In this document: positions 38,604 through 42,020 of the stretch, piece after piece
Layout: the number at the start of each line of letters is the position of its first letter
How positions within the stretch are numbered: the stretch's first letter is position 1
Source: Fervidobacterium pennivorans DSM 9078
GTDB taxonomy: Bacteria; Thermotogota; Thermotogae; Thermotogales; Fervidobacteriaceae
DNA: 64,000 bases
Assembly: GCF_000235405.2 (NCBI RefSeq)
Contig: NC_017095.1
Span: 372,001-436,000 of the forward strand
Direction: 5' to 3'
Made by a program: the position numbers and the translations under genes
The notes under the pieces: model-generated
The model's database searches: none
What the model was told of the DNA's origin: nothing
The model's input: the letters and a program-made list of their open reading frames with translations, nothing else

Positions 38604-38675
38604 AAAGTGTTACGTGTGTAGGTTCTGACCTTAAGGTCTATTCCACCAAACAATTTTCTTCAGGAGGGATATACC

Positions 38676-41600
38676 CTGAAAACTCTCACAAAATACGTAC
38701 TCAAACAATCACTTAAGCCTTTTTTCATGGGGCTCGCTGGGTTCATTGTCTTTGTAAGTGTCGAATGGTTATACCAAATCTCTGATTACATAATAAGAAA
38801 CAGGGTAGGAGTTTCAAAGCTCTTATTGTTTGTCGCGTACAACATTCCTTACTTCACGGTTCTTGGTATACCGGTAGGTGTGCTTTTTGCGATATTTTGG
38901 GTGATTAGCGAAATGTCGACAAATAGGGAAATTACAGCAATATTGGTCCATGGAATCTCGTCAAAAAGGCTAGTGACCCCGTTTTTGATTCTTTCAATAT
39001 TATTGGGATTTTTTTCTTGGCTTCTGAATGATTACATCGTTCCTAACGCAAATTACAAATCGTCTCAGGTATTGAATCTGTACATCCTTCAATCTCCGGA
39101 AACTGTTATCAAAACAAATATGCTTGTAGAGCTTGAAAAAGATGTCTACTTTTACGTAAAGCAATATGACAAGCAAAAAGGAGAACTATACGATGTCGTT
39201 CTTTTCAGAAACGAAGAAGGAAACGAACAGATTTTAACATCAAAGAAAGTCATAAAGAAAGAAGACGGCTGGTATTTGCTTGACGGTAACATGTATATTG
39301 TTGAGCTGGAGACTGGGTTTCTAAAACTGGATATGCAATTTAGGGAAATGAAGTTAGATGTCGCAGGCGAAATTGAACAGATGCTTAGAGCCTATAAAAC
39401 AACTCGTGATAAGACTTCAAAGGAACTTCGCGAACAGCTCGAGACTTACAAAAAACTGGGCATAAACACTGCTTCTCTAACTGTAGAATTGCATCAGCGT
39501 TACGCAACAGCCCTTGGCTCTTTAGTTATAGTACTCATAGGCTTGCCTGTATCGTTACTCTTTGGTTTTTCAAGCAAATCCTGGAGTGTAATTTTGACGT
39601 TCGTACTCGTTGTGCTTTATCAGGGTTCTGGAGCATGGCTTTCTGGGATGGGAAAGGAAGGACTTATGGATCCAGTATTGGCTACCTGGTTACCAAACAT
39701 AATGTTTGCAGTGGTCGGGCTCATACTCTACTTGCTTATGGATACGCCGATAGCTTACAAAGCAAGAGAAATTCTCAGTAAATTCTTTGTAGCATTTTTA
39801 ATCTTTGTTTCCTTTTCTTTACTTCTCTCATCAACGGGGTTTGCTGGTGATCTGAAAGTTACTGCAAGTATTGCGAACTTTTCGGAAACTTCTGTTTTTT
39901 TAAAAGACAAAATTACAGTAGTATGGGATAAATACAGACTTGAATGTGATGAGGCCACTGCTACACTGGAGAATGGTAAGGTAAAAACAGTATTTGCTTC
40001 CGGAAATGTCTCATTCTACGATGGTGATAGGAAATACGTTGCAAAATCGCTTACTTACCACTTTGAAACAAGTAGAGTGCTCGTAGTTAACGCAAAGACC
40101 ATCTATAATTACAATTACAAAGGTAAGAACGTTCCCATATACGTGTATGGTTCAGAGATAGAGGTCGAAAACATAAACGACGAGAGAATAATGCAAGTAG
40201 AAATACGTAATCCTTCAATAACTACTTGTAGCTATGAAGAACCTCACTATTTAATACTCTCAGAAGAAGTTTATGTTTTGGAAAATAAATACATCATTGC
40301 CACAAACTCGTTCCTTGTAGTTCTTGGAGTTCCCATTTTCCCATACCCAGTTTTTGTGACAGCACTCCAAGGTGAACCACCGTATTCTCTGACTTTTACT
40401 TTAGGTAATACATTTGGAGTTTCTCAAACCTTTGCTTTCAATGTTAACAACTGGAATACGAAGTTGGTTTTGGGAACAGACAACATAACGTTTCAAGCCA
40501 ACGATAACATCACCAAGCTGAATAAAGTATCATACGACCTGAAAGCGGACAGATTTGAGTTTACGCTCTTTCCCCTAACTTATAGGTATTCCAACAAAAC
40601 GGTATATTATAAATACGACGGCATGGTTTACCTTGAAGGTAACTATCTCTCAGATTCTAACTATTACCAGAGAATAGGGCTTTCATTACAAGATGAAAAG
40701 GCACAACTTTACTTTAAGCCTTACATAATGTACGACGCTCGTTTGACAGATACGATAATTCATATTAACGGTGGTGTTAAAAATGTGTCCTTTGTCATCT
40801 TAGATGCTAATATCCTCAGCCTTAGCTTCGATAATAACTTAAACCTAAGAACTGATGGATATTTAGCATCGTTACAAAGAGATTGGATGCCAACGTACCG
40901 AGGTACATATAATTTGAATATCGCCAATAATGTCATTAAGTATACTCTCAACCTGTCTGGCGTATTGTCCGAAAGCGATCAAAACACAACTTTTCTTTAC
41001 ACCTACCAATTTCCCTGGACTTTTAAATGGGACTCATTCACCACCAATTTCAACTACACTTTCAATATCAAGGCAGTTTCAAACATATCTGCAACAAAAA
41101 CAGAATCACTTGGCATGTTTGACAGATACCTTTTAGATTTGAGTTATAGTATAGGTCCGTTCCGATTGACAGGTAGTTGGGAACAATCTTTTGCATTTTT
41201 AGATGAGCCAAAGACAACCAACAAAAATATTTTTAAACTTACATTTAACTTAAACTCTGACAAGCTAAGGGCAAGTGTTAGTAGAGGTATCGACTTTCTT
41301 AATAGCAAACAATTACCAGACACATTTACTATAAGATATTCGGAACAATTTGGTTCAGTTAATGCAAGCGGTTTAATCTCAGGAACATACGACAATAATA
41401 ACGCAAAGCTTGGTGTTCAGAACATCAATTTTGGAATTGGTTTCAAAGATATTCAGGCAAATTACTCTCTACAATTTTCAGTAATTCCTGGAAATCCAAT
41501 AGCAGTGTTTGTCCACACTCTAAAATATTCCAACCTCAGTGCAACGATTTATCAAAAACCTGATTATATAGAGAGAGCCACTGTGTCCGGTTCGTTTAAC

Positions 41601-42020
41601 TTGTTTGATTACAATAGTAAGATAAGCGGAACTTACCACGTGCGAACAGCAGGGGCAGAACCAAATTGGAGCTTGTCTTACAGCATGGAAAAGAAAGATG
41701 AGAAATATGTAATATCGTACAACATAGATAATACAAAAAGGTATCTTCTTGAATTGAGCACAAAAAAGATAGATCCAAACATTTATATAAAGATTAGGTA
41801 CGACCCATCAAGAAATGTTATTGATAGCATGAATTTATCAATTGATAAGTCCTTGCACTGTTGGAGGCTTCTTATAGGTGCAGACTTATCATACAAAAGC
41901 ACTGGTAACTGGTTAGATTTCTTGGACAGGCTTACTCTTAAATTATATCTTACGGACATATCTGACATTTTCTTCCTTTTGGATCCAAAGACAGGTCAAT
42001 TCCAATTCAGTGGGATGTGA
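38676..42020 (+). CDS. Fusion: LptF/LptG-type permease + OstA/LptD-like beta-rich protein
   Basis: A 1114-residue protein. Residues 1-365 form an LptF/LptG (YjgP/YjgQ) permease: six membrane segments with a large extracytoplasmic loop (about 126-285), opening KTLTKYVLKQSLKPFFMGLAGF as usual for the family. A hydrophobic stretch (370-387) ending STGFAGDL looks like a retained signal peptide. Residues 392-540 resemble an OstA/LptA domain (DKYRLECDEATATLENGKVKTVFASGNVSFYDG), and 540-1114 are Asn/Tyr/Ser-rich alternating strands like an LptD barrel. The start is set at CTG 38676: GGAGGG (38663-38668) is seven bases before it, while the ATG at 38727 has none and would cut off 17 conserved residues. 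The last bases overlap tilS if its GTG is used. Confidence 0.82.
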   Translation: MKTLTKYVLKQSLKPFFMGLAGFIVFVSVEWLYQISDYIIRNRVGVSKLLLFVAYNIPYFTVLGIPVGVLFAIFWVISEMSTNREITAILVHGISSKRLVTPFLILSILLGFFSWLLNDYIVPNANYKSSQVLNLYILQSPETVIKTNMLVELEKDVYFYVKQYDKQKGELYDVVLFRNEEGNEQILTSKKVIKKEDGWYLLDGNMYIVELETGFLKLDMQFREMKLDVAGEIEQMLRAYKTTRDKTSKELREQLETYKKLGINTASLTVELHQRYATALGSLVIVLIGLPVSLLFGFSSKSWSVILTFVLVVLYQGSGAWLSGMGKEGLMDPVLATWLPNIMFAVVGLILYLLMDTPIAYKAREILSKFFVAFLIFVSFSLLLSSTGFAGDLKVTASIANFSETSVFLKDKITVVWDKYRLECDEATATLENGKVKTVFASGNVSFYDGDRKYVAKSLTYHFETSRVLVVNAKTIYNYNYKGKNVPIYVYGSEIEVENINDERIMQVEIRNPSITTCSYEEPHYLILSEEVYVLENKYIIATNSFLVVLGVPIFPYPVFVTALQGEPPYSLTFTLGNTFGVSQTFAFNVNNWNTKLVLGTDNITFQANDNITKLNKVSYDLKADRFEFTLFPLTYRYSNKTVYYKYDGMVYLEGNYLSDSNYYQRIGLSLQDEKAQLYFKPYIMYDARLTDTIIHINGGVKNVSFVILDANILSLSFDNNLNLRTDGYLASLQRDWMPTYRGTYNLNIANNVIKYTLNLSGVLSESDQNTTFLYTYQFPWTFKWDSFTTNFNYTFNIKAVSNISATKTESLGMFDRYLLDLSYSIGPFRLTGSWEQSFAFLDEPKTTNKNIFKLTFNLNSDKLRASVSRGIDFLNSKQLPDTFTIRYSEQFGSVNASGLISGTYDNNNAKLGVQNINFGIGFKDIQANYSLQFSVIPGNPIAVFVHTLKYSNLSATIYQKPDYIERATVSGSFNLFDYNSKISGTYHVRTAGAEPNWSLSYSMEKKDEKYVISYNIDNTKRYLLELSTKKIDPNIYIKIRYDPSRNVIDSMNLSIDKSLHCWRLLIGADLSYKSTGNWLDFLDRLTLKLYLTDISDIFFLLDPKTGQFQFSGM

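Follow-up and report, generated by a model that had tools for sequence, protein, structure and literature searches.

In the genome of Fervidobacterium pennivorans DSM 9078, a single open reading frame joins an LptF/LptG-type permease to a large region resembling LptD, which raises the question of whether its product works as one continuous chain or as two separate proteins. The window analysed here, whose numbering is used for all positions below unless another locus is named, is a 64,000-nucleotide stretch of contig NC_017095.1. An earlier note on this DNA had suggested that the fusion could act as a single-chain conduit across the envelope. In our view the product is likely a polyprotein belonging to the Lpt machinery for lipid export, which signal peptidase I cuts into a permease and an LptD. 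The host belongs to the Thermotogota, heat-loving bacteria with an outer membrane (the toga). Descriptions of the phylum often state that LPS and most genes for outer-membrane assembly are absent (PMC8871954, PMC5007114).

The gene and the sequence in front of it are placed as follows.

38662 to 38668, forward strand: Shine-Dalgarno sequence AGGAGGG, read from the sequence and conserved in the two closest relatives.
38676 to 42020, forward strand: whole gene for LptF/G permease, predicted signal peptide and LptD, 1,114 aa, from CTG to TGA, with uninterrupted homologues.

The homologues start with CTG, TTG, GTG or ATG at the position aligned with 38676, and because they begin there, this start is right; the limits given in the earlier note thus stand. 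The CTG at 38676-38678 is common to loci L048 and L068, with a strong Shine-Dalgarno sequence in front. A start at the first ATG, at 38727, was rejected, as the 17 residues that it would remove are conserved and set in at the same point in the homologues.

The occurrence of the joined frame was profiled in 103 Thermotogota genomes. PF03739 was present in 100 of them, and nearly all of the phylum has one LptF/G gene per genome. In 86 of the 100 PF03739-positive genomes the match belonged to one open frame of 1,050 aa or more; most of those checked among the remaining 14 were contig ends or broken frames, and two were genuine splits. The earlier note had allowed for a frameshift artefact, and broken homologous frames do exist (G041 and G093). 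However, the joined frame is whole in 86 genomes, single-contig assemblies among them, and the idea that an assembly, annotation or sequencing error joined two genes was rejected, its probability being practically negligible. In Marinitoga lauensis several frameshifts break the homologous gene (L126:5989-9443), probably through sequencing error. The Kosmotogaceae/Mesotoga-type versions (L033, L035, L061 and L062) are longer, at 1,430-1,490 aa, the surplus of about 300 residues being distributed over the barrel part. Upstream, 26-32 of 40 loci retain ruvB, yggS, nadK and a PhoU-like gene. As far as sequence comparison can tell, the permease-LptD fusion is ancestral in Thermotogota.

The N-terminal part carries the following features.

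38691 to 39731, forward strand: LptF/LptG permease, residues 6-352, with six transmembrane helices (PF03739, 2.6e-73; full-length model).
38928 to 38930, forward strand: Glu85, the coupling-helix glutamate, invariant and aligned with E. coli LptF E84 and LptG E88.
39120 to 39356, forward strand: periplasmic beta-jellyroll of the permease, residues 149-227, six strands between TM3 and TM4 in the model.

The PF03739 (LptF_LptG) match to residues 6-352 scored 247.5 bits against a curated cut-off of 27.9 and covered profile positions 1-351 of 353. The same residues matched solved LptF chains, and the LptF/G fold matches of the full-length model had TMt values of 0.59-0.73. The six-helix permease that the earlier note had read from the letters is therefore confirmed by both profile and model. 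Equivalog-level identity as LptF or LptG was not reached (133.8 versus 230 bits and 129.9 versus 240 bits), so that the permease is neither one specifically. This is the sole LptF/G gene in the 2.17-Mb F. pennivorans genome, and with no second one there, it is probably a homodimer of this permease that pairs with LptB.

The C-terminal part is far more divergent, with a sequence identity of only about 15-20% across Thermotogota. Its features are listed below.

39846 to 40370, forward strand: OstA/LptD_N beta-taco region, residues 391 to about 565, from the TTC...PHY...VPxFYxP signature, profiles and the model.
40227 to 40229, forward strand: Cys518, conserved in 40 of 40 homologues and aligned with E. 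coli LptD Cys173.
40371 to 42017, forward strand: predicted LptD-type beta-barrel region, residues about 566-1114, from the all-beta model and PDB fold matches.
41859 to 41861, forward strand: Cys1062 in the LHCW motif, conserved in 34 of 40 homologues and placed on E. coli LptD Cys725 in a weak alignment (E 0.068).

Searched as a single sequence, the C-terminal 744 residues gave no meaningful Pfam or NCBIfam match; a hit to HopA1 (0.05) was dismissed as chance, and at E<=0.1 LptD_N went undetected in this sequence by itself. The relationship emerged from a family alignment of the tail built from 40 homologues, which contains OstA strands, an invariant Cys within the TTC...PHY block, a VPxFYxP motif and the C-terminal LHCW. 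LptD_N (PF03968) matched 20 of the 40 members (best 2.4e-8), while the Pfam LptD barrel models matched none of the 40 at E<=0.1. The family profile matched the Neisseria LptD (7omm) at 5e-9 over profile positions 37-314 and a second solved LptD (8h1r) at 3.3e-7, and LptA chains were also matched. When the family was aligned with E. coli LptD by hhalign (1.5e-6), Cys518 was placed on Cys173. In loci L045, L047, L066 and L067 (genera g3 and g4) the second motif reads LHHW; the LHCW cysteine is lost and the TTC cysteine kept, and an interdomain disulfide, if there is one, is therefore not shared by all members.

The barrel identity rests on the predicted fold. AlphaFold2 modelled residues 390-1114 as an all-beta chain (mean pLDDT 87, pTM 0.55), and the best 16 of 739 PDB matches to this model were all LptD, the top one at 7e-18. 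The TM-scores to solved LptD were low (0.26-0.40), and given these and the pTM, the exact barrel geometry is only tentative. A single full-length model matched both LptD (2.7e-20) and LptF/G (4e-14, TMt 0.65). We considered whether the tail could instead be an unrelated large outer-membrane barrel, of a porin- or autotransporter-like kind, behind an OstA domain. The low identity across the phylum, the low TM-scores and a Pfam Porin_4 match in 2 of the 40 members would fit such a barrel; on the other hand, the TTC...VPxFYxP block behind the OstA region aligns with LptD, both LptD cysteine positions recur, LptD provides all 16 leading fold matches and the gene is shared with its Lpt permease. 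We regard an unrelated barrel as very unlikely, and by family profiles and predicted fold, residues 391-1114 are a divergent LptD.

The profile searches and full-length structure prediction that the earlier note had proposed thus mostly favoured its reading of the domains: the OstA/LptD-like region does lie in the same frame as the permease, the full-length prediction recovers both folds, and PF03739 covers residues 6-352, with the OstA/LptD similarity visible to the family profile and not in the single sequence. Its limits (1-365, 392-540 and 540-1114) were close to those now placed at 1-354 for the permease, about 391-565 for OstA and about 566-1114 for the barrel. What it overlooked is the stretch between permease and OstA region, which looks like an internal signal peptide with a signal peptidase I-like site.

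39762 to 39845, forward strand: putative internal signal peptide, residues 363-390, AREILSK followed by FFVAFLIFVSFSLLLSSTGFA, with predicted cleavage after Ala390 (between GFA and GDL).

In the established orientation of LptB2FG, the end of LptF/G that follows helix six lies in the cytoplasm. In the window protein, AREILSK precedes 21 uncharged residues that end with GFA at the proposed site, before GDL. Across the 40 homologues, the 13 residues preceding the hydrophobic run have a mean net charge of +2.1, and the uncharged run up to the proposed site is typically 15-21 residues long. The proposed -1 position is A, S or G in 36 of the 40 (T, T, C and P in the other four) and the -2 position is F, Y or W in 33. 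For reference we used 29 signal peptides of Thermotogota substrate-binding proteins, whose cleavage sites were assigned by eye; these have A/S/G at -1 in all 29 and F/L/Y at -2 in 28. The lowest-confidence run of the full-length model is residues 381-391 (below 50). In loci L046 and L056 (genus g19) the putative signal peptide is followed by about 40 residues of spacer rich in Pro, Thr and Ala, and L046 has the Cys at -1.

The same residues could be read differently, with 370-390 as a seventh transmembrane anchor and the chain staying intact as a covalent conduit from inner to outer membrane. Of the roughly 1,100 positions scored in the window protein with a matrix built from the reference signal peptides, the site after Ala390 ranked highest. 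Across 31 members, however, the homologous site came first in only 5, with a median rank of 10 of about 1,100, and that the matrix does not put the site first in every member speaks for an anchor; the competing sites, among those inspected, fell mainly in permease helices or the same hydrophobic run. In the full-length model, moreover, only a few residues separate the hydrophobic run from the first OstA strands, which would let the OstA region sit directly on the permease in the manner of LptC, and the fusion is ancestral and retained almost everywhere. Against this, the -1 column is 90% A/S/G, following the cleavage grammar of the phylum, and an uncharged run of 15-21 residues is short for a plain anchor.

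Further evidence came from the two natural splits of the fusion. In Thermotogae UR.bin268 (L114), the permease ends with KRLLG, just before the hydrophobic run, and an ATG four bases past its stop codon opens a free LptD that begins with MHLRYKSFSPVLFIISLFFIILSGTKVFS, followed by ATAY; this split is seen on one MAG contig (genome G054), and the sister G055 is truncated by the edge of its contig. The second case, G005, has two tandem stand-alone permeases of 394 and 376 aa, and the family profile located a free LptD of 849 aa on another contig, with an N-terminal signal peptide that begins MKERRMVIKKFKKNQIFHILILIILLIPLMAFT. Its loci (L050:7410-9740, L167:4753-7302 and L082:7294-9105) hold an unfused and duplicated Lpt set, comprising the two tandem LptF/G permeases, the free LptD and a 603-aa multi-OstA protein. 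The last was rejected as the LptD of this genome, as it is without a barrel region. The permeases of G005 join the fused members of its family in the tree, on long branches. Since the free LptDs of both split lineages nest among fused relatives in the LptD tree, fission looks secondary and seems to have happened twice. With free LptDs in two lineages, the covalent permease-LptD linkage is, by this comparison, dispensable. The junction signal peptide is homologous to the N-terminal signal peptides of the split LptDs, and the linker is thus predicted to behave as a signal peptide once freed.

The partner genes also bear on the question. As the earlier note had remarked, LptB is not in the window; its gene lies elsewhere in the same genome (G000:C1:346295-347077; TIGR04406 at 2.2e-91, over the cut-off, with the Walker and signature motifs present), where it follows an OmpH/Skp gene. 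At L083:7857-9078, lptB comes immediately after an ompH/skp gene, which couples two genes of envelope assembly. A single separate OstA protein was seen, of 222 aa (G000:C1:819321-819989), which matches LptD_N and LptC. BamA and signal peptidase I are both encoded.

The signal-peptide junction, the free LptDs and the separate OstA protein together make two cleaved products likelier than an intact chain from inner to outer membrane. The single-chain conduit of the earlier note is therefore not supported: the signal peptidase I-like site at the junction is conserved, the genome encodes signal peptidase I and an OstA bridge protein apart from the fusion, and two lineages release LptD behind a normal signal peptide; one OstA region would, moreover, span only a thin periplasm. 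We judge it unlikely that the chain stays intact with residues 370-390 as an anchor, and it is improbable that, with the chain uncut or not fully cut, living cells of a phylum without LPS would hold an ATP-driven covalent lipid conduit of permease, OstA and barrel. Processing may also be partial, with most chains cut to free LptD and some left intact as an LptC-like permease adaptor. Signal-peptide strength differs among members, and with one separate OstA protein, LptA or LptC must be absent unless a single protein fills both roles, which would suit such an adaptor. The intact form is impossible in the split lineages, however, and so not essential there, and we hold partial processing to be quite unlikely.

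In the polyprotein reading that we prefer, residues 1-354 would form the LptF/G permease, with the chain back in the cytoplasm after the sixth helix. Residues 363-390, which combine positive charge and a hydrophobic run with a small-Phe-Ala motif, would then direct the remainder of the chain to the periplasm, for cleavage by signal peptidase I after Ala390. The freed product of 724 residues would be LptD, consisting of the OstA/beta-taco region and the barrel, and BamA, with help from Skp, may put it into the outer membrane (toga). The result would be a reduced Lpt bridge of permease, LptB, a separate OstA protein (LptA/C) and LptD, with a single mRNA yielding permease and barrel at 1:1.

LpxC was found in none of the 103 Thermotogota genomes, and the same search detected it in four control genomes, which supports the LPS-independent role that the earlier note had suggested. 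With LpxC missing across the phylum, lipid A is an improbable cargo, and some other amphiphile, for example a glycolipid of the outer leaflet, is the likelier one. An Lpt set (LptB, LptF/G, OstA and LptD) that extends through the phylum without lipid A makes the supply of lipid to the outer leaflet of the toga testable, and offers a deep-branching LptD for questions on the origin of the outer membrane. If true, joining permease and barrel in one polyprotein around an internal signal peptide would make for an unusual co-production of both ends of an envelope machine. A search of the open literature found no description of the fusion or its internal signal peptide. Lpt orthologues in Thermotoga maritima, by contrast, have been noted, with credit to Putker 2015, in a paper that also cites T. 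maritima glycolipids (PMC10353723). The orthologues were thus already known, and the fusion and internal signal peptide are apparently undescribed in the open literature.

Among known systems, Borrelia burgdorferi is likewise an LPS-free diderm with an Lpt machine, for which glycolipids are the proposed cargo, a precedent in favour of glycolipid export in the absence of LPS; all components are separate genes there, and the part of that paper drawn on here mentions no fusion (PMC10353723). The Lpt cluster of Negativicutes and Halanaerobiales, which make LPS, similarly has a single LptF/G homologue plus OstA proteins, but no LptD was found there, whereas here LptD is present and joined (PMC5007114). 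The window permease shares with E. coli LptB2FG the full-length PF03739 match, the TM/jellyroll/TM layout and the coupling-helix glutamate at E85, and differs in being a single gene, below the LptF and LptG cut-offs, with a C-terminal extension. The tail resembles the LptD of E. coli, Neisseria and Pseudomonas in its OstA region, TTC/VPxFYxP block, large predicted barrel and Cys173 and Cys725 positions; unlike them it is without the Cys31/Cys724 pair and a Pfam barrel match, and it is translated as the tail of a permease. In the cytochrome b/c1 polyprotein FbcH of Bradyrhizobium, a polytopic membrane protein leads through an internal signal peptide into an exported domain, and the chain is cut in two. 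FbcH serves a respiratory complex and is without an outer-membrane barrel, but its arrangement within one chain is the same as the one proposed here.
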